A DNA stretch of 64,000 nucleotides from Hysterangium stoloniferum (lineage: Eukaryota > Basidiomycota > Agaricomycetes > Hysterangiales > Hysterangiaceae). Below, piece after piece: positions 23,512 to 64,000 of the stretch (the first letter of the stretch is position 1; the number at the start of each line of letters is the position of its first letter). The stretch is taken from NCBI GenBank assembly GCA_015178975.1, contig WHVD01000087.1, forward strand, positions 248,001 through 312,000, written 5' to 3'. Below the pieces are notes generated by a model. The model searched no databases, was not told the DNA's origin, and was given only the letters and a program-made list of their open reading frames with translations. The translations under genes were made by a program, and so were the position numbers.

Positions 23512-24071
23512 TGTTAAGTGCCGTGTCAGAACTTATTCTGGAACTATCGGGAAGTCACCGGGAAGTCGGAAACTCATGGATAGGGTCAGGACGTCGGCTT
23601 TAGCTTATGTGCTGTGCCTCTACGCAAACGCTCAATGTCCTTAATTTCAGAAGTAAAGTTTACGACGGAAGATATGGATATTCAGAGTTCCGAAGAGTTC
23701 CGAATATCGAGCGTACAGAAAGACGGGAGGAGGAATAAGAAACTAAGTCAATATCAGATCTAAGGTAAAGTACAAATTCGCGGAAACTAATATAAGTCTA
23801 CTCGTTATTGTACTACAAACTAAGACCATAATAAGACGGAAACGGAAGTGTTCTTAAAACGGAAATACAATAAGACATATTAGGGAGACAATATTCCGAA
23901 ATGGGAATACAACAAACAAACGAGTGAATACTTGTCAATGGACAAATTACCAAATGCGGAACAAGGAAGAATGCGGATGATACGGTAACTATGATGTTCC
24001 GTAGTCGGAGATTGGAGGTTGGAAGTTGGAGGTTGGAAGTTGGAGGTTGGAAGTCGGATATTGAAACATCC
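23512..24071 (-). repeat. Chromovirus LTR (3' for its strand)
   Basis: Aligns to 30453-31015. It contains the shared LTR core near 23605-23660. A 14-bp minisatellite (GGAGGTTGGAAGTT, three units) at about 24010-24053 is shorter and CG-richer in the partner LTR. The boundary on the internal side is approximate. Confidence 0.85.
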
Positions 24072-24247
24072 GGGTTAGGCCGAAATCCCATAGAGGCGAT
24101 TAGGTACTGAGTGATTGAAGCGACGGTTGATCATTATGTGTCATGAATTTTACGCAATTCTGGAGGTGAGAGTTTCGGCTGATGTTCTGAGTATAAAAAC
24201 CTCCAAATATTCGAATTAACATTTTTGTTTCTTTATCCACAACTTGT

Positions 24248-25402
24248 ATGTTGATTCGTCGGCCATTATTCATCACTACCCCGGAAGATTCAGATACTGA
24301 AATTGCCATTCTACAAAAAATGTCGAAGGTCGCAGAACTTCAACAAAAACGACAGAGGATGGAGGAGTTGAAGTGACGACAGGAGGATGAGGAAAAGGCA
24401 TTGATGCAGCAGTTGAAAGATGCGGAAGAGGCGGAAAAGTGGGAATTAGAGCGAGCGAAGGCGGAAAAGGAGAAGGAGTTGGCGAGGTTGCAGAAAGTAA
24501 TGGAGGATCAGAGGTTGAAGGAAGAAGAAGTGAAGAAGCAACGAGAGACTGAGGCAGCGGAAAAAAGTAAGGAGGTAAGGGAAGGAAAGGTAAGTCCAAT
24601 TCCATAAATTTCCGTGGTTCCAACCGATAACTGTTGCGTACAGCGAAAAGCCATGGAGGTGGAGGTAGAGGGAGAAGCTGGGCCTTCGAGTCCTAAAGTA
24701 AGTGCATCTGCAAAAGATTGGTATTTGACTAATCTTCCGAAACAGAAACAAAAGGTCAAGGCTCCGGAACGGATGGAAATTGTTCATGACACTCCGTGTC
24801 ATCGATGTTCCATACGGAACATGACGTGTTGGAAGCAGAAGGTAAAATGGGGTGGAACTTGCTATCCCTGCGTGGTCCTCAAACTTCCGTACACTCTTGC
24901 TGCGAAAAGGGTTCTGAAAGGTGAGAAGGCTCAGAAAGCTAACGACGTGGAAGGTTTGGGAACAGCTAGGGCTGCGGAAACTGAGGTGCTGAAAATGGAT
25001 AGTATGGGCATTGAGCTCCTCAAGGACACCGTCGACGTGTTGGTTTTTATCGGGATGGAAGTCATGAAAATGCGGGACACAATGGATCGCCATAATGATA
25101 TCCAGGAGAAAGGTTTCCGTTCGTTGATCCGGAATTTCCGGAGGCAAAACGAATTCCTAGAGAAGATAATGGTTAGCATTGGTGTCATTGTAGTATCCGA
25201 TAGGTTTTCCGATAAGGCATGGGAAAAGCCTAATGATCCGTTGGCGGAATGTGTCGAAAAAAGGTGGGCGTCAGGAAATGGGCCGGAAGAATCAGAGAGT
25301 GAGGATGAAGAGGTGCAGGATATGGTGGAAAGTGCGGAAATTGCGGATGATATGGGAGTGGAAATGGAAGGAGGATTTGGGGTGTCAGAGACTTTAAAAT
25401 AG
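24248..25402 (+). CDS. Convergent accessory ORF of the chromovirus
   Basis: Lies inside the chromovirus on the strand opposite to gag-pol, converging on the end of pol with about 100 bp between stops. The upstream part (about 24248-24590) encodes a long charged helix rich in Glu, Lys and Arg (for example KEKELARLQKVMEDQRLKEE), a probable coiled coil. A GTAAGT...ACAG pair around 24590-24648 suggests a short intron. The downstream 262-residue part (24614-25402) has a cysteine cluster CHRCSIRNMTCW...CYPC (residues about 62-85), suggestive of metal binding, then amphipathic helices and a strongly acidic tail (ESESEDEE). I do not recognise the family. Similar acidic-tailed ORFs lie at the same place in the chromovirus pieces ending at 61313 and 63683. 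Described as part of a fossil element. Confidence 0.65.
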
Positions 25403-25502
25403 TCCTAATAATATTTTTTTTTGACTTGCAAAACCTAAAACGAGTGTGATATCGGAAATGTCAGGAGTGTCGGAAACTGAACAGAAAGAAAACAGAAAAG
25501 TG

Positions 25503-28028
25503 TTAGAGTGATGATAAAGGTCCAGGTTTACTTGGATAAGCCGTGTGGAAATCAGTGACAATTTCCATAGCATGTCCTAGTTCTGTGGCCAATATCCATG
25601 AAGTTTCCTCGTCGGTACCTTCATAGCCTGCCCATTTGACTAAATAGAGCAATTTACAAGTATGTCGGCGATTGTCGATTTTAGAATCCAAAATTTCGGA
25701 AACTTCAAATTCGGGTTCTCCGTCAATAATGACCGGAGGGGACGGAGGTTGAATACGTTCCGGGATTTTGTTAGGAACACAGGGTTCTAACATGGAAACG
25801 TGGAAAATGGGGTGAACTGCTCACATACTATTGGGAAGTCGGAGAGTCCATGAGAGTGAACCGGCTTGTGCTATAATTTCAAAAGGTCCTAAGAATTTCT
25901 CAGCAAGTTTTTTAGAAGGTTGTGTAGTATGGAAAAATTGAGCTTTTACAAAAACCTGATCACCAATTTTAAAGTTAGGAGGTGGGATCCTGTTTTTGTC
26001 CACGGAACATTGATAATATTCCTGTGCAGAAGAAATAGCTTTCCGAAGTTCTTGATGTAATTCGTCGAGGTCAGTAATAAATTCTTGAGCACGGACAGAA
26101 GCCAAATCTCGTTCAGAATGTACGGTGAGATTTGGATTATAGCCTTTGTTGGCGAAAAAAGGAGATACGCCGGTAGTTGCATTCGGGGAGTTATTGTAGG
26201 TGAATTCCGCGATCAAGAGAAGGGATTTCCAATTGTCCTGTTGATAATTGCAATAGATGCGGAGATATTGTTCCAATGTTTGATTTACATGTTCCGTTTG
26301 TCCATCACCTTCCGGGTGATATCCCAAGGTGAAGTGTAATTTCATGTCGAGGGCTTTTCCGAGAGCCTGGAAGAAGTGGGAGACGAACTTGGAGCCTTGA
26401 TCGGAGGTTACGTGAGACGGAACTCCGTGTTTGGAAAATACGTGAATAATGAAAAGTTCCGCTAATTGTAAGGATGTGATTGTATCATGAGTGGGTATGA
26501 AAATGCCTTGTTTCGAGAATTGATCCACAACAACTAGAATGGATGTAAAGCCTTCGGAAGTTGGGAGTTGTTTGATAAAATCCATGGAAATTGAATTCCA
26601 GGGTTTTTCTGGTATCGGGAGTTGCTTGAGAAGGCCGTACGGCTTATGCCTCTGGGTTTTGGAGTGTAAGCAGGTGGTGCATGACTTACAGAACTGGGTT
26701 ACGAAATCTCGGAGGTTGGGCCATGTATATTCTCTACGGATTAAACCAAGAGTATTGTTAATGCCGTAATGTCCGGAGATTGGATGATCGTGTTTATACT
26801 GAAGTACGCAGAGTCGGAGATTGTTGGAATCTGGAACGTAGATACGTCCATCGAGACGGATAAAACCTTCAGAGTCCTGTGACCATCGGGGTTGGTCCGG
26901 ATTGTCAGGAACTTCTAGGTGTGGCTTGAGAGCCGGGTCGGAAGTGAGTGCGGAAAGGATATCTTGATGTAATTGCTCAATGTCCATAATCATGACGCTA
27001 CACATAATTGGATAGTAGAGGGAAGTTGCTCGGATAGATGTGGAAAGTTGTTGCATTGTAAAAACTGGTTTCAAGTTATGCGGATTAACAATGGCATAGT
27101 TACTTTCCCCCTCTTTAGGATAGGCGTCCCATCGTCGAGTCATGGCATCTGGTTTTCCACCAAGACGTCCAGGTCGGAAACGGATAATCATGTTGAAAGC
27201 AGAAAGGAATTCGGACCAGTGGGCTTGCTGGCGGGTTAAAAGTTTAGTGGTAGAAAAATATTCGAGATTTTTGTGATCAGTAACAACGTCAACGGGAGTT
27301 GAGGAACCTTCGAGATAATGGCGCCAATGTTTAAAAGCTTCAAAAATTGCCAAAAGCTCCTTATCATGAATGTTGTAGTTAAGTTTGGACACTTTCAGTG
27401 TCCGAGAAAGAAATGCAACTGGATGAATTTCACCGTCGGAATCTTGGATGGAAAGAATCACGGCAATTGCATAATCGGAAGCATCGGTTTCCACAATAAT
27501 TGGAACATCAGGTTTCCAATGGGAAAGGATCGGGGCAGAAGTGAAAGCATTTTTTAAAGTCTGGAAGGCGGATTGGCATTTATCGTCAAAGACCCATGGT
27601 TGAGTTTTACGGGTAAGATGAGTGAGTGGTACTGTAATATCCGAGTAGTTCCGAATAAAACGACAGTAAAAGTTGGCGAAACCTAAAAATGACTGAATAT
27701 CCTTGACTTTCCGTGGTTCGGGCCAATCACGGACAACTTGAACTTTGGTTTCATCCATACGGAGACCATCAGGTCTGATAATGAAACCTAAGTATTCAAT
27801 AGAATCCATGTCAAAGTAGCATTTTTTACTGTTGGCGAAAAGACCATTTTTACAGAGTCTTCGGAAAACTTCACGGACCTGTTCATCGTGGAGAGCGGGA
27901 TCCTCGGAAAATACCAAAATGTCGTCCAAATAGACTATAACACATATGTCAAGCATGTCGGAAAATATATCATTAACAAAACATTGAAAAGCGGAAGGGG
28001 CGTTGGTAAGGCCGAACGGCATAACCAA
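25503..28028 (-). CDS. Chromovirus pol: RT-RNase H-integrase-chromodomain (fossil)
   Basis: Polyprotein portion of the element at 23512-31015. A 735-residue open stretch (25821-28028) carries the RT active-site motif YLDDILVF, an RNase H domain with DASDYA and DKELLAIF, the integrase zinc-binding H-H-C-C region (HPISGHYG to CKSCTTC) and the catalytic integrase core with MDFIKQLP and SDQGSKF. After it, at 25503-25793, comes a chromodomain (KLLYLVKWAGYEGTDEETSW), which identifies it as a chromovirus. The upstream RT half and protease lie at 28030-29130. The element as a whole is broken. Confidence 0.92.
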
Positions 28029-29590
28029 CCATTCAAAGGATCCATAGCGAGTCCGAAAAGCAGTCTTTCATTCATCGCCCTCGGCAATTCGGACCAAATG
28101 ATAGGCATGTTTGAGGTCTATTTTGGTGTAGATCCGAGCTTTCTGTGGGGCATCGAGTAAATCGGTGATGAGTGGAAGTGGATACTTATCTTTCCATGTG
28201 ATGGAATTTAATCCTCTGAAATCGACACATAGTCGAAGAGAGCCATCCTTCTTTCAGACGAAAAGGACGGGTGCTCCATATGGAGACTTTGAGGGACGGA
28301 TAAAACCTATCGACAGATGTTCATCCAGGAACTCCCGAATAGACAAAAGTTCTGATTGGGATAACGGGTAAATAGGTCCTAATGGAGGGTTTGAACCGGG
28401 CTCAATATCGATTTTTAAGTTGTAAGGCCTATGTGGTGCAAGCCTGTCAGCTTTTTGCTTACTGAAAATGTCCGCGAAATCATGGTATTTTTCGGGAACT
28501 CCTTCCAGGTCGGCTTTTAGCTCAGATAATTCTGGAGTCACAAAACGTCCAGATGCTTCATCAACTTTTAAGCTGATCGAAAAACACTGCAAACCATCCA
28601 GTTTACTCGCCCTAACAAATGCCGAAGCATTGATGAGAGAGATTTTTGGAGGCGCGGAGGTTTCCGTAGAAGCCAGAGGTGCCATAGATACCGAAAAGGC
28701 GTTGGCCGGAAGAGACGCTGCAGGAGGAACCAAAGTGTCGGGAATCCAGAAATTAATACTGCCCAATACCCAGTCAATCAACGGATTATATCAGGTGAGC
28801 CAGTTGTATCCAAGAACTACCGAACAACTAGAGTCCAACTGTGTTACGAAAAAAGTAACCGTCTGGGATGTTCCACAAGGGAACCGGATAGACATGTTGC
28901 AGGCTTGGGTAATTGCCGTATTGCTAGTGCTGTCAAATAGATGCAAGGAAATTGCGGGAACAGAATGGAGTTTCAGATTATGTTTCGTGGCAAAGGTGGT
29001 ATCTACAAAACAGTGTGTGGAGCCGGAATCTATCAGAGCTCAGAACACTAAATTTCCAAGAAAGTCAGAAACAAGTTTTACAAATAATGAATCGGGATTA
29101 GAGAGAGCGGACGCATTGAGACGGATAACCTTGGAAACACGGAGAGAGTCAACACAACCCTCTGTCCGTGCAGATTCCGGAGGGTTGCTTACTCTTTTTT
29201 CGGCTCCGTGGTGGGTTTTTCCTTAGATGTTGTAGTCGTAGTGGAAGTTGCCACGTGGGCCTTGGAAGAGTTAGATTTAACGGTACAGTTGGAAACCTTG
29301 TGTCCGCCTTTCCCACAGAAAAGGCAGAGGTCGTTGTCCATACGTCATTGTTTCTCCTTCGGGGTGAGTTTACCATTGGTACCCAACAAATGGGAAATAT
29401 CGGGTTTGTCGGAAGTTGACTGTTTTTCCTTGTTGGATTTCTTGTCTTTCTTCCGGTCGGAGTTTGATTTGCCAGTATTAGTGCCAGAGTTGCCAGTGTT
29501 ATTGCCTGAGTTGTTGCCAGAAGACTTGCTAGTCGATGCCTTGTTGTTCTGAGAACGTTCCGTCAGGTTCTCTCGAGAAACCTCGGCTTT

Positions 29591-30418
29591 TCATTCCCAA
29601 TAATGGGCATCGGATGTTTGAGCTTTCATCCACATGAGTTGGAGAGTTTTCAGCTTTCCATCTTTGCAGATTTCGTCTTTAAGGTGTGACGGAAGTCCCA
29701 TATAGAAATGGTGTCTGAGGGCGGAATCATCCCATCCACATCGTGCGGCGAGGGTATTGAACTTGACAAGATAATCGGAAACTCGTTGATTGTCCTTTAT
29801 CTTGAGCGTCATTAATTCATTTTCCGCTTCACCGGATTGATCGTAAGGTCCGAAATTGGTTTCCAATTCTTCCACAAAAGCGTCCCAGTCATCAAGCCAT
29901 ACGGGTGTCTCGTCGGATAATCCAGATAGTCCGGGTTCGAACCAATCTTGAGCGGTATCCTTGAGATACGAGAGCGCGAAATCGACTTTTCGACTGTCAG
30001 ATTTAAATGCAGAGGGTTGATCACGGAAACTGAAATGGCATTGGAGAAGGAAATTCTTCAATTTTTTCGGATCCTTGCCGGTAAATGGTTCGGGTTCTTT
30101 GACTCCGGTGCGGGATGATTCTTTACTATCCTCAGCGGATTTCAAGTAGTCAGCAAATTTCACAATGGAGTTGATAAACAACATTTCAGTCGGTTCGTCG
30201 GAAGATTTCTTTTTTGATGTCTCTGGCTGATCTTCTGCTTCGTTGTCGGAAGTGTGGGGAACATTGGTGTCCTTTGTTACCTCGGTAACCTCCTCAGTAA
30301 CTTCTTCGACTGAAGCTGATGTTGTCGGCTGAAATGGGGTTTCAGGTTGGGTGGTGTAAAGTTGCAACGGGGATTGAAGTTGGGATGGTCCTTTGGCAGC
30401 TTTGCATTTGGGACCCAT
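29591..30418 (-). CDS. Chromovirus gag (275-residue ORF, fossil)
   Basis: Starts MGPKCKAAKGPSQLQ just inside the 5' LTR (LTR edge at 30453). The first about 80 residues are Thr/Glu/Ser-rich and disordered. The rest matches the fungal retrotransposon gag fold, with EPEPFTGKDPKKLKNFLLQC, AQDWFEPGL and MTLKIKDNQRVSDYLVKFN. A nucleocapsid-type knuckle CLFCGKGGHKVSNC lies downstream at about 29300-29345. Part of a fossil element. Confidence 0.88.
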   Translation of the reverse strand: MGPKCKAAKGPSQLQSPLQLYTTQPETPFQPTTSASVEEVTEEVTEVTKDTNVPHTSDNEAEDQPETSKKKSSDEPTEMLFINSIVKFADYLKSAEDSKESSRTGVKEPEPFTGKDPKKLKNFLLQCHFSFRDQPSAFKSDSRKVDFALSYLKDTAQDWFEPGLSGLSDETPVWLDDWDAFVEELETNFGPYDQSGEAENELMTLKIKDNQRVSDYLVKFNTLAARCGWDDSALRHHFYMGLPSHLKDEICKDGKLKTLQLMWMKAQTSDAHYWE

Positions 30419-30452
30419 GATGAGTGAGTCGCAGAGTTGAGATCTGATATAC

Positions 30453-31015
30453 TGTTAAGTGCCGTGTCGGAACTTATTCTGGAACCATCAGGAAGTCACC
30501 GGGAAGTCGGAAACTCGTGGATAGGGTCAGGACATCGGCTTCAGCTTATGTGCTGCGCCTCTACGCAAACGCTCAATGTCCTTAATTTCAGAAGTAAAGT
30601 TTATGATGGAAGATATGGATATTCAGAGTTCCGAAGAGTTCCAAATATCGAGCGTACAGAAAGATGGGAGGAGGAATAAGAAACTAAGTCGATATCAGAT
30701 CTAAGGTAAAGTACAAATTCGCGGAAACTAATATAAGTCTACTCGTTATTGTACTACAAACTAAGACCATAATAAGACAGAAACGGAAGTGTTCTTAAAA
30801 CGGAAATACAATAAGACATATTAGGGAGACAATATTCCAAAATGGGAATACAACAAACAAACGAGTGAATACTTGTCAATGGACAAATTACCAAATGCGG
30901 AACAAGGAAGAATGCGGATGATACGGTAACTATGATGTTCCGTAGTCGGAGATTGGAGGTCAGAAGTCGGAGGTCGGAAGTCGGATATTGAAACATCCGG
31001 GAACGGGTCGTAACA
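30453..31015 (-). repeat. Chromovirus LTR (5' for its strand), 563 bp
   Basis: TGTTAAG...TCGTAACA on the plus strand, adjoining the target duplication TCAGG at 31016-31020. The shared LTR core is at about 30530-30590. Differences from 23512-24071 are few and many are CG versus TG/CA. Confidence 0.9.
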
Positions 31016-56718: not shown

Positions 56719-58485
56719 CTAGTACTTGGTGTAACCCCCCCTTGGCATCAAAACAGCTGCAATCCTTCTAGGCATACTCTCTATCAAATTCTGACAGATA
56801 AAAGCAGGAATCCTGACCCATTCCATCTGGACCCTTACCCATAACTTGTTACGGCTGTGTCGCAACCCTATCGGTCCCCGAGGTTATCACCACCTATCGA
56901 CGATTTGAAGTTACTGTTCAAGTCACCACATCAGAAACCATCGGCCTCCCGAAGCTGATGTATGCTTTCGCAGTGATCAAACCCCATTTATGCCCACGTC
57001 AAAACATACTTGAACTATCTGGTTAAACTCTGATACATCCCCTTTATTATGATGATCCGCTCTATCCTATGTGTCACATATGTCTATATATATTTGTAAC
57101 CCTTGAACTATTTCCTTTTACCATAATTCTGCTCTCGGTTATCATCGGCCTCTGAACTAATCATAAACTTCCCGTTCCTAGTCAAGTTTATTTGTCAATA
57201 CCATGTTCCACTCTTCTCTTAGTTAGTATTTCCTAGACACCTGTTACTTGTATATGAACCCACTGTAGTTGTAGTTACCAGGCAATCAGAATATCGACTC
57301 AGAATACCCTCTTATGCCTCCAGAAGTCTCATACTAAAAATCCCACCTTCCACCTTCACGTGCGCTCACCCCCCTTCAGTCCCCGACCCCTTGGCCTGAC
57401 ACTCAACTCATCCCTCAGTTCCAATCGGTAGTTTTCACTGAGAGGTATTCGTTGGGACTAGTCTTTGTCCACCCGAAATTTAAAAACACCTGACAGACAA
57501 CTGCGAGGGTGCAGCACATAAGCTGAAGGCAAGTCCTTCCGATCGGTCCCCATCGGTCCACCAACATTAGTCAGTTTCCAGTTCTTAACAGTACTCCTGA
57601 ATACTCCTAGGCTCCACTTCATACTCTAGTAGCCTCTTCTTGAGGTAATGCCACAGGTGTTCAATTGGATTAAGATCAGCAGATTGAGGGGGCCATATCA
57701 TTCATGACATCAAAATCACTGCCATTAAGCCAATTGGTGGCCTTCTTGCTCTTGTGTTTGGGATCATTGTCTTGCTGAAAGACAATATCCCTAGTCTTCT
57801 TCTTGTAATGCTGAGAGATCCTTGAGGTTCATCCTCCAAAATGCTAACATAAAGTTCAGTATCCATCCTCCCATCAATCTTGGTAGCATATCCTGGTCCT
57901 TCCCAGAACATACAACCTCACAACATCAGATTCCCCCCTCCAAACTTGACCGTGCCCTCAACCAGCCTATCACTGAGCCCCTCTCCTGCTTTTTTCCACA
58001 CCCACTTCCTCCCATATGACCCCAAATGATTGATTTTAGTCTCATCTGACCAAACAACCCTCTTCCAGTCCTCCAGAGACCAGTTCTTGTGTGCCAATGC
58101 AAAGTCCAGCCTCTCCCATCTATGCCTTTTTGTGAGTTTAGGCCTTTTCCTCTTCACCACAGCCTTCATTCCAGCTTTCTCGAGTTCCCTATGAATTTTT
58201 CTTGCAGAGATAGACTCCCCTTTATATCTTGTTGGACTTTAGAGGCCTGAGTGGCATGGTCAATCTTCTGGGAAGTGATTTGTTGGATGATGTAATGGGT
58301 ATCAGAGGGGGAATGTTTGTGTGGATAACCTCCAGCTGCTTTGGAGAGGGAGGAAGAATGTTTAGAGTGAATTCTGGATATAGCAGAGACAGAACAACCA
58401 GTGGTAGCAGCTACTTTATGTGCAGACTTGCCCTTGTCAAGTAGAGTAAGAAATGATCAAGTTGAGCAGGAGTGAGAGCTCTCAT
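56719..58485 (-). pseudogene. Tc1-like transposase, frameshifted and LTR-interrupted
   Basis: DDE transposase relic. It starts MRALTPAQLDH (58485), then a frame change, followed by the helix-turn-helix region LDKGKSAHKVAATTGCSVSA. Next come KRPKLTKRHRWERLDFALAH and the first catalytic Asp in VVWSDETKINHLG, then KFGGGNLMLWGCMFWEG. After another frame change come the second Asp in FQQDNDPKHKSKKATNWL and the Glu in ADLNPIEHLWHYLKKRL. The last part, beyond the LTR (56719-56846), reads SMPRRIAAVLMPRGGYTKY-stop, the usual family C-terminus. So the protein is complete in extent (about 340 aa) but has at least three frame changes. Not functional. Confidence 0.88.
56847..57590 (-). repeat. Solo LTR (744 bp) inside the Tc1-like relic
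   Basis: TGTTACGGCT...GTTCTTAACA, the same family as 62241-62984 and the nested pair at 15.8-17.3 kb. The shared core lies at about 57470-57545 (minus strand). The flanks TAACT and GTACT are only partly alike, so the target duplication has decayed or was altered. Confidence 0.85.
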
Positions 58486-61505: not shown

Positions 61506-61835
61506 TCAGTCTACATTTATGGGGCTATCTTTTTTCCCCACCTTGGTTTTCCCCACCTCAGCCATCTCCTCGGGTAGCTCCGCTATCTCCACGGGCACCC
61601 CTTCCTCATCTGACCCAGCATCCTCAGAACTCCCAGCCTCCGCCTCCTCATATACAAAACTGGCATATTCCACTAGGAATTTGTAATGTTCCAAGTGGAG
61701 TGCATGGAGATCAATGGCCATCACCACATGCACCTTGTTGCTCTTCTTAAGCAACTCGTTCTGGGCTTCTATGCCATCAGCGATCCATCCCAAAACCTCC
61801 TCCAGGCCGGAATACCCATCCGACCCACCTGTGGA
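61506..61835 (-). CDS. Convergent accessory ORF beside chromovirus fragment 2 (partial)
   Basis: Minus-strand ORF whose stop lies 193 bp past the end of the chromodomain ORF. The readable part begins near the junction at about 61835 and includes EVLGWIADGIEAQNELLKKS and LEHYKFLVEYASFVYEEAEA. It ends with an acidic stretch SSEDAGSDEEG and KKDSPINVD. Cut at its N-terminus by the next chromovirus piece. Same position, orientation and acidic-tail design as the ORF at 24248-25402, and nearly the same C-terminus as 63881-64000. Function unknown. Confidence 0.62.
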   Translation of the reverse strand, partial: STGGSDGYSGLEEVLGWIADGIEAQNELLKKSNKVHVVMAIDLHALHLEHYKFLVEYASFVYEEAEAGSSEDAGSDEEGVPVEIAELPEEMAEVGKTKVGKKDSPINVD

Positions 61836-63683
61836 ATTCTATCTTTATGGATTTCATTGAACACCTACCAGATTCTGAAGGCTTTTCTGCCATTCTAGTC
61901 GTTGTTGACAGATTCTCAAAACAAGGTATATTCATCCCTAATTATGATACAATTACATCCATGCAGTTAGCGGAACTTTTCATTATCCACGTATTTTCCA
62001 AGCACGGAGTTCCATCCCATGTGACTTCCGATCGAGGATCAGAGTTTGTATCTCACTTCTTTAGATCCCTTGGGAAATCCTTGGACATGACATTACATTT
62101 CACATCCGGACATCACCTGGAAGGCGACGGACAAAGCGAACGCATCAATCAGACATTGGAACAATTATTGATCTCTGCATATATTGCAATTACCAACATG
62201 ACAATTGGAAATTCTTGTTACCACTTGCAGAGTTTGCTTATGTTAAGAACTGAAACCTGACTAAAGTTGGTTGGCTGACAGGGACCGATCGGAAGGACTT
62301 GGCTTCAGCTTATGTGCTGCACCCTCGCAGTTATCCATCGGGTGTCCTTAAATTTCGGGCGGGCGAAGACTAGTCCCAATGAACACCTCTTGGTGAAAAC
62401 TACCAATTGGAATCTAGGGATAAGTCGAGTGTCGGGCCAAGGGGTCGGGGACCAAAAGGGGGCGAGCGCACGTGAAGGTGGATAGTGGAATTCTTAGTAT
62501 GAGATTACTCTAGACGTAAGAGGGTGTTCTGAGTCAATATTCTGATTGCCTAGTAACTACAACTACAGCGGGTTCATATACAAGTATCAGATGTCTAGAA
62601 AATACTAACTAGGAGAAGGGCGGAAAACGGTATTAACAATAAGCTTGACTAGGAACGGGAAGTTTATGATTAGTTCGGAGGCCGTGAGATAACCGAGAGC
62701 AGAATTATGGTAAAAGGAAATAGTTCGAGGGTTACAAGTATATATAGACATATGTGAAACATAGGATAAAATGGATCATCATAATAAAAAGGGATGTATC
62801 AAAGTTTAACCAGATAGTACAAGTATATTTTGACATGGGTGTAAACGGAGTTTGATCACCACGAAAGCATACATCAGCTTCGGGAGGCCAATGGTTTCTG
62901 ATGTGGTGACTTGAACAGTAACTTGAATCGTCGATAGGTGGCAATAACCTCGGGGACCAATAGGGTTGCGACATGGTCGTAACAGCTTACAACAATGCAC
63001 CTTCAGCCACTACTGGTGTTTCCCCATTCTTTGCAAATAAACGATATAATCCAAATATTACAGTACATCCAGAATGAAATCTCACCTCTGCTCACACTCA
63101 AGAGTTCACTGCAGACCTCCACGAGCTCCACGAAGAACTCCAGACTGCAATAATGTCCGCCCAAGAGCAATATCAACATTCAGCAGACAAACACTGGATC
63201 CCACCACCAAACTTCAAGATTGGCGATCGTGTTTTTGTCAAAGCTCAATTCTTCCGGACTACTCATCCATCAAAAAAGCTTGCTGAAAAATATTTAGGTC
63301 CTTTTGAAATTATTGCACAAGTAGGTTCAGTCTCTTGGACTCTATGGCTTCTGGATAGCATGTGCACGGTACACCCAGTATTTCATGTTTCTATGTTAGA
63401 ACCTTGTACTGCTAACACTATCCCAGATCGCGTGCAATCTCCGCCTCCTCCGGTCATTATTGACAGAGAACCCAAGTTTGAAATCTCGCAAATTTTAGAT
63501 TCGAAAATTGACAAGCGTCGACACACTTGTAAACTGCTTTACTTGGTCAAGTGGGCGGGTTACGAGGGCACCAATGAAGAAACCTCATGGATTTTGGCCA
63601 CAGAACTCGGTAATGCCATGGAAATCGTTACTGACTTTCATATAGCTTACCCACTCAAACCTGGACCACTATCGTCTCTCTGA
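61836..63683 (+). mobile_element. Chromovirus pol fragment 3 with nested solo LTR (fossil)
   Basis: The integrase core (VVDRFSKQGIFIP, VTSDRGSEF) is interrupted at 62241-62984 by a solo LTR. It continues with the integrase C-terminal region (IPPPNFKIGDRVFVKAQFF) and a chromodomain ending at 63683. Slightly better preserved than fragment 2; few breaks. The join to fragment 2 at about 61835 shows rearrangement or nested insertion. Confidence 0.9.
62241..62984 (+). repeat. Solo LTR, 744 bp, with 5-bp target duplication
   Basis: TGTTAAGAAC...GGTCGTAACA, flanked by GCTTA at 62236-62240 and 62985-62989. The reference uninterrupted copy of the 744-bp family. It contains the shared core at 62296-62360. 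Confidence 0.93.
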
Positions 63684-63880: not shown

Positions 63881-64000
63881 TCAGTCTACATTTATGGGAC
63901 TGTGTTTTTTCCCTGCCTCCTCAGCCACCTCCTCAGGGAGCTCCACTACCTCCGTGGGCACCTCATCCTCATCTGACCCAGCGTCCTTGGAACTCTTGGC
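63881..64000 (-). CDS. Convergent accessory ORF beside chromovirus fragment 3 (runs off the window)
   Basis: The last 39 codons of a minus-strand ORF entering from beyond the window end. The C-terminus has the acidic run DAGSDEDEVPTEVVELPEE and ends KKHSPINVD, almost the same as the ORF ending at 61506. The stop is 198 bp past the chromodomain stop at 63683. Unknown function. Confidence 0.6.
   Translation of the reverse strand, partial: AKSSKDAGSDEDEVPTEVVELPEEVAEEAGKKHSPINVD

Follow-up and report, generated by a model that had tools for sequence, protein, structure and literature searches.

An antisense accessory gene with two putative introns and a Zn2Cys6-like cysteine cluster in a chromovirus lineage of Hysterangium stoloniferum

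Antisense accessory genes of long terminal repeat (LTR) retrotransposons have long been described, and their function is not agreed upon, according to the relevant part of PMC7264820. The aORF-3R genes of plant Ty3/Gypsy elements (Grande gene23, RIRE2, Retand) lie antisense between pol and the 3' LTR in most copies, and the gene of Grande has its own promoter and a nuclear location (same part of PMC7264820). DNA binding was suspected for TRP28, the domain encoded by the Retand gene, in the passage of PMC11963269 dealing with it. The word "intron" was absent from both papers on the plant antisense genes. A fungal example, brtn of the Ty3/Gypsy element Boty of Botrytis cinerea, was reported by Zhao et al. 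2011, as mentioned in passages of PMC7264820, PMC8365987 and PMC5987419. Among animal retroviruses, human T-lymphotropic viruses (HTLV) make the HBZ and APH proteins from antisense transcripts that are spliced and have their promoter in the 3' LTR; HBZ, which is nuclear and of the bZIP type, lowers transcription from the 5' LTR, and APH-3 and APH-4 do likewise without a bZIP (PMC10186651, in the sections on these proteins). Here, a comparable gene is described in a Ty3/Gypsy element of the fungus Hysterangium stoloniferum. It was located at positions 24248-25402 of a 64,000-nucleotide stretch of contig WHVD01000087.1, hereafter the window.

The gag-pol genes of this element were found on the minus strand and the antisense gene on the plus strand, between pol and the 3' LTR. 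A preliminary description of the window had reported three opposite-strand open reading frames (ORFs) converging on chromodomain-encoding pol ends, and all three were recovered together with the stop codons facing them (25402/25503, 61506/61313 and 63881/63683). The genome searched comprised 111 Mb in 554 contigs; its 18 Hydrophobin and 42 Zn_clus domain matches are those of a fungus, and such numbers would be in keeping with a mushroom-forming basidiomycete. The best 40 of 361 candidate copies, the window copy included, were aligned; they are a sample of the most similar ones (83-100% alike) and are referred to as family A. Reading the frame across these copies revealed three exons and two introns, where a single possible intron had been suspected. 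Exon 1 (24248-24589) starts with ATG and encodes a charged coiled coil. It is followed by intron 1 (24590-24643, 54 nt), exon 2 with a basic/acidic stretch resembling a nuclear localisation signal (NLS) (24644-24697; 54 nt in 40/40 copies), intron 2 (24698-24745, 48 nt) and exon 3 (24746-25402), which encodes six clustered cysteines, then a long helix, and closes with an acidic C-terminus and the stop codon.

Donors GT and acceptors AG of both introns were kept in all 40 copies. Intron 1 measured 52-54 nt, with the donor GTGAGT in 27 copies and GTAAGT in 13, and the acceptor ACAG throughout. Intron 2 was 48 nt long in every copy; its donors were GTAAGT (34 copies), GTGAGT (5) and GTAGGT (1), and its acceptors ACAG (39) and AAAG (1). 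At the level of splicing signals, these segments have the properties of spliceosomal introns. The ATG was kept in 39/40 copies, the remaining one (L024) being truncated by a contig end, and a TATA box, TATAAAAA, was present about 50 nt upstream of the start codon in 38/40 copies (24192-24199 in the window, between the LTR and the start codon, plus strand), from which the gene may be transcribed as from its own promoter. Conservation beyond chance was thus seen in the splice sites, the reading frame, the TATA box and the cysteines. Under the three-exon model, 24/40 copies were open from start to stop past codon 320. The window copy, previously regarded as the most complete one, was disrupted at codon 43 by a TGA (24374-24376). 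Its 264-residue ORF (24608-25402), of which a 262-residue part had been taken as coding, contains exon 3 and reads through intron 2; it is open only because an in-frame stop, carried by intron 2 in the other 39 copies, is missing from that of the window copy.

The distribution of the gene was surveyed with the gene's protein (best 116 of 1,221 candidate places), with its C-terminal part (best 150 of 393 candidates) and with the pol tail (best 150 of 2,585 candidates). A converging gene from the protein survey was found at 97 of the 150 scored pol tails, the two being separated by 83-261 bp (median 96 bp). The C-terminal survey paired 25 more, so that 122/150 scored pol tails were accompanied by a converging gene within 600 bp. 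No scored pol tail had any of the 116 protein-survey loci on its own strand within a distance of 3 kb, and in 39 of the 40 aligned loci the strand of the pol tail was opposite to that of the gene. No paired gene was found among the scored loci for 28 pol tails; the gene searches scored only part of their candidates. At one of the first 53 unpaired pol tails, which was examined and is counted among the 25, the 3' half of the gene was present, interrupted by another insertion. Hence, the gene recurs past the chromodomain in most copies of the lineage, on the opposite strand between pol and the 3' LTR, as the plant aORF-3R genes do. The preliminary description had spoken of chromoviruses; extending the statement to all of them would be too wide. 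The six-cysteine motif was found on neither strand of 20 other chromodomain loci (every second row, 1-39, of the 150 chromodomain matches listed); these best-scoring rows belong mainly to other lineages, and decayed gene copies would escape such a search. A gene common to every chromovirus was therefore not supported. It was also observed that one of these 20 loci (L075) holds a chromodomain of the window lineage on the other strand, and that L076 contains, as judged by eye, an apparent piece of the family-B gene described below in the other direction.

Selection on the reading frame was assessed in 23 intact copies, L002 being excluded for an out-of-frame stretch in exon 1. The median NG86 ratio of nonsynonymous to synonymous change (dN/dS) was 0.288 for the antisense gene (243 pairs), and 1.03 and 1.16 for the other two frames of the same strand. 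Between copies, dN/dS of the gene was below 1, as the preliminary description had asked to be checked. The pooled ratio of the corresponding proportions (pN/pS) was 0.318, as opposed to 0.66 (0.65-0.68) when the same base changes were simulated at random positions. By region, median dN/dS values were 0.24 for the coiled coil, 0.19 for the NLS and cysteine part, 0.99 for the linker, 0.20 for the helical part and 0.19 for the acidic tail. In two pol stretches, which could be compared in 12 and 17 of these copies, the medians were 0.19 and 0.17, and those of the antisense gene in the matching subsets 0.27 and 0.30; the gene is therefore conserved comparably to the gag-pol proteins, a further feature of plant aORF-3R genes. 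One minus-strand frame also gave a low median (0.35). This is reasoned to mirror the value of the gene, since third positions are common to both, and a real gene on the minus strand was ruled out by the 3-6 stops in each of the 23 intact copies. The pattern demonstrates that the antisense gene evolves non-neutrally, under selection at the protein level, and it was seen again in exon 3 of 11 family-B copies, where pooled pN/pS was 0.28 (median 0.21) against 0.59 simulated. The earlier suggestion that this lineage has a third, conserved gene was thereby borne out by prevalence, by pN/pS and by the occurrence in two families.

The predicted protein comprises 343-350 residues. Its coiled-coil part is highly charged (in L012, 31 K/R and 31 D/E among residues 1-114), and a stretch KRKAV...PKKxKVK follows, which resembles a nuclear localisation signal. 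The CxxC cluster noted earlier was completed by other copies to the spacing CX2CX6CX10CX2CX6C in family A, the middle spacer being CX9 in family B; the window copy has Tyr in place of the sixth Cys. Each cysteine was kept in 39 or 40 of the 40 copies and all six in 38, and the other residues of the 60-residue cysteine stretch were kept in 35.5 of 40 copies on average. All six were invariant across 13 aligned exon-3 sequences of both families. Fungal Zn2Cys6 proteins have the spacing CX2CX6CX5-12CX2CX6-8C, into which the cluster falls, and the order of a cluster followed by a helix is that of Gal4-type proteins. When the cluster stretch was searched in isolation, Pfam Zn_clus was the top match in family A (E 0.53, 10.9 bits) and in three family-B sequences (E 0.0028, 0.0068 and 0.29; 18.2, 16.9 and 11.7 bits), the one at E 0.29 being almost tied with an unrelated family. 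No significant match to the antisense protein was found in Pfam or NCBIfam (nothing below E 0.5 in the latter), a search of the Protein Data Bank with the 83-residue cluster stretch only gave 0 matches, and no confirmed relative was found in IMG/VR. The bZIP family and TRP28 (PF04195) were absent among the Pfam matches listed up to E 5. Some hypothetical proteins encoded by mushroom genomes combine a charged N-terminus with a CxxC cluster and may be relatives.

The two other opposite-strand ORFs of the window, formerly grouped with the gene at 24248-25402 as one set, share its plan and are 3' fragments of a second family, B. The piece at 61506-61829 (minus strand) loses homology near 61829, at the start of a fragment of another element. 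Directly behind it, at 61751-62260, part of the integrase of a different chromovirus copy was seen by eye, indicating a nested or rearranged stretch at 59-64 kb. A family-B pol C-terminus with a chromodomain above the Pfam cut-off was found at 63078-63683 (plus strand), facing the 3' end of a second gene at 63881-64000 (minus strand), which runs past the window end and was assigned to family B by its matching end. Both pieces carry the ending SPINVD, as had been reported. Using the 61.5 kb piece as the query, the best 40 of 1,869 candidates were collected and the plan was read in 19 loci (L043-L061). The sequence CCTATATAAAA was exact upstream of the start in 10 of these, and the start codon was at the matching place in 13. 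The donor GT of intron 1 was present in 15/19 loci and its acceptor TCAG in 18/19; for intron 2, both the donor GT and the acceptor ACAG were found in 18/19. The order of parts was the same as in family A, namely coiled coil, NLS-like exon 2, six cysteines and an acidic end with SPINVD. L057 did not fit the model, L060 and L056 fitted it in part, and no copy (0/19) was open from start to stop, because the family is old.

Between families A and B, pol was 64-84% identical (four segments) and exon 3 only 28-36% (local alignments with three B copies; the score of L047 was 66, compared with at most 55 in 200 shuffles). The coiled-coil exon was 36% identical, to which composition alone contributes, and exon 2 (18 residues) 61%. 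From these comparisons, the gene probably predates the split of the two families, and its protein changes faster than pol.

It was proposed that the gene is an accessory gene of one chromovirus lineage encoding a nuclear DNA-binding regulator of the element, similar in action to HBZ, and this is the interpretation towards which, on balance, we lean. The gene, read from the opposite strand to gag-pol, would be driven by a TATA box of its own in the internal region, close to the 3' LTR. Its introns could persist in a transposing copy because the genomic RNA that is reverse transcribed comes from the other strand. The protein would enter the nucleus, dimerise via its coiled coils and bind DNA, and presumably zinc, through the Zn2Cys6-like cluster. 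It would then regulate the transcription that starts in the LTR of its own element, and would most likely serve as a brake or a latency switch, as HBZ does in HTLV-1. A possible regulatory or chromatin-binding role had also been suggested in the preliminary description; the NLS-like stretch, the cluster and the acidic tail speak for it as a possibility.

CGG triplets are the binding targets of Zn2Cys6 proteins. CGGAA was the most over-represented 5-mer of the window 3' LTR (11 against 1.7 expected from dinucleotide shuffles, z 7), and 4-23 sites of the CGG type per LTR were counted in 36 related LTRs. With synonymous codons shuffled, it was also in excess in the main pol ORF (20 vs 8.8, z 4.6) and in the antisense gene (12-17 vs 7-9 in five copies, z 2.4-3.8). 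The 20 loci without the gene contained 41 against 39.4 expected, i.e., no excess. An excess of CGGAA/TTCCG was observed on both strands over much of the family-A element (23512-30995). The hypothesis that these are the sites of the protein was formed post hoc and is a lead rather than a result; it stays exploratory, since site conservation and family B give it no clear support. A bolder version would be that each family encodes a DNA-binding protein specific to itself and that the element has been shaped to carry its sites (CGGAA in the LTR, pol and gene of family A), regulator and sites diverging together and at a higher rate than pol. The control exerted by each family would then be confined to that family, in an HBZ-like autoregulation or self-immunity of independent origin. 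This version is tentative, and we regard it as doubtful.

Several results weigh against a DNA-binding regulator. The evidence base is genomic sequence. The curated cut-off of Zn_clus (PF00172), 21 bits, was reached in neither family, and neither the full-length family-A protein nor its exon 3 (a query with one residue off) gave a Zn_clus match up to E 5. Since the scores were under the cut-off and the full-length protein was unmatched, the cluster is called Zn2Cys6-like and is placed outside that family. A basic residue is usual between the second and third cysteine of the Zn2Cys6 signature and is absent here. None of the 42 Zn_clus matches in the genome coincided, by eye, with a listed gene copy. 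AlphaFold2 modelled exon 3 poorly (mean pLDDT 51), only one long helix being seen, behind the cluster, which gives no evidence of a fold. As to the candidate sites, the CGGAA excess was weak or absent in gag (7 vs 3.9, z 1.9) and in the short pol ORF (2 vs 1.1, z 1.0) and unclear in five family-B LTRs (6 vs about 3). With five of eight reference LTRs, non-CpG change was clearly lower within the sites than around them; with one there was hardly a difference, and with two it was slightly raised. CpGs inside the sites changed about as often as other CpGs. Separately, the Zn_clus matches were seen to be grouped on a few contigs (C56, C115, C209, C113; e.g., C56:27459-45410), which looks as though the domain also belonged to some other repeat or tandem family.

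The same anatomy could serve transposition itself, the protein binding element DNA or chromatin and aiding nuclear import or the choice of integration sites alongside the chromodomain. The NLS-like exon 2, the DNA-binding-like cluster, the coiled coils and the extension of the CGGAA excess beyond the LTR agree with such a role; however, a separate antisense promoter would uncouple the protein from gag-pol expression, an arrangement more to be expected of a regulator than of a component of the particle, and we consider this role unlikely. Counter-defence proteins often diverge strongly, and the low identity of exon 3 between families relative to pol could be read as a sign that the protein counters silencing of the element by the host through RNAi or DNA methylation. 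Most of the protein is strongly constrained within family A, though, and no significant Pfam or NCBIfam match points to such a function, which makes this explanation distinctly improbable.

Introns and a promoter resembling those of a host gene might suggest one recently captured and hitch-hiking in a few copies, but the gene occurs in both families, whose intron positions correspond, and at most of the scored pol tails, which makes a recent capture very unlikely; an ancient one is possible. No host parent gene was seen in a search made only via Zn_clus. It is less probable still that the antisense RNA alone matters, convergent transcription yielding double-stranded RNA and the reading frame being incidental: the convergent layout with gaps near 96 bp would allow it, whereas low pN/pS in two families, kept introns, mostly in-frame length changes and six conserved cysteines are at odds with it. 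Finally, overlapping minus-strand ORFs and the low dN/dS of one minus frame might hint at a chance frame opposite a coding or GC-skewed region. That low value is a mirror in a frame full of stops, and conserved splice sites and cysteines are unexpected by chance; together with pN/pS they rule a chance ORF out, its residual probability being negligible. The element-encoded regulator is the reading preferred here.

The remaining parts of the window element were assigned as follows, all on the minus strand. The 3' LTR (23512-24068, ending in TG..CA) and the 5' LTR (30453-30995) form a direct repeat, 96% alike over 300 nt compared without gaps. The motif CCCCCTG, a polypurine tract on the element strand, adjoins the 3' LTR in 34/40 copies and is missing from the window copy. 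The gag ORF (29591-30418) matched Retrotrans_gag (E 6e-14), and pol consists of a part with domain matches to the reverse transcriptase end, RNase H and integrase (25821-28067) and a C-terminus with the chromodomain (25503-25820; Pfam Chromo E 3.2e-7, 30.6 bits). Since pol ends in a chromodomain that scores above the Pfam cut-off in both families, A and B belong to the chromoviruses. At the start of the internal region, 11 nt, ATATCAGATCT (30440-30450), are complementary to a stretch inside the LTR, about 33 nt past a TATA-like sequence as counted by eye; this suggests a candidate self-priming site, presumably of the Tf1 type. A 14-nt tandem repeat of the GTTGGAGGTTGGAA type was observed at 24018-24060 in the 3' LTR, its repeat number being unequal between the two LTRs. 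The CpG observed/expected ratio was 0.95-1.39 in the element, i.e., not depleted, and 0.32-0.70 in other window parts and in the 20 other loci. Additionally, minus-strand ORFs at 57918-58456 resembled a Tc1/mariner-type transposase by eye, with similar ORFs in L068, L070 and L073.

The literature search, whose coverage excluded most subscription journals, listed no paper in which a chromovirus of a basidiomycete carries an antisense gene. A figure legend in PMC2864245 marks an undescribed "add. ORF" in some fungal elements, so an earlier sight of the gene is possible as far as that legend goes. Within the literature searched, what appears to be new is an antisense gene of a basidiomycete chromovirus that has two introns and encodes a six-cysteine cluster, and for which many copies attest both selection and a divergence faster than that of pol. 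A selected gene with splicing signals, a DNA-binding-like module and candidate sites in the LTR would make the function of antisense genes directly testable.

Compared with the plant aORF-3R genes, as characterised in the parts of the papers cited above, the fungal gene has the same position, orientation and presence in most copies. The hosts are different, Retand is not a chromovirus, and the likeness concerns descriptions, not sequences; unlike in Retand, TRP28 did not appear in the Pfam listing for the fungal protein (E up to 5). With brtn, likened by the available description only, it shares being a fungal antisense gene of the same element class, in another host. Zn2Cys6 (Gal4-type, PF00172) proteins are resembled in cysteine spacing, the helix behind the cluster, the acidic tail and the top Pfam match of the isolated stretch; the sub-threshold score, the missing basic residue, the additional coiled coil in front and the coding by a transposon set the protein apart. 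HBZ and APH-2/3/4, as presented in the sections cited, are likewise antisense and spliced, splicing of the fungal gene being predicted from its signals. However, they belong to animal retroviruses, the fungal protein has a six-cysteine cluster and no listed bZIP match, and its TATA box lies in the internal region and not in the LTR. Common descent with HBZ and APH is very unlikely; if self-regulation is true, the gene would be an independent fungal counterpart of these retroviral antisense regulators.
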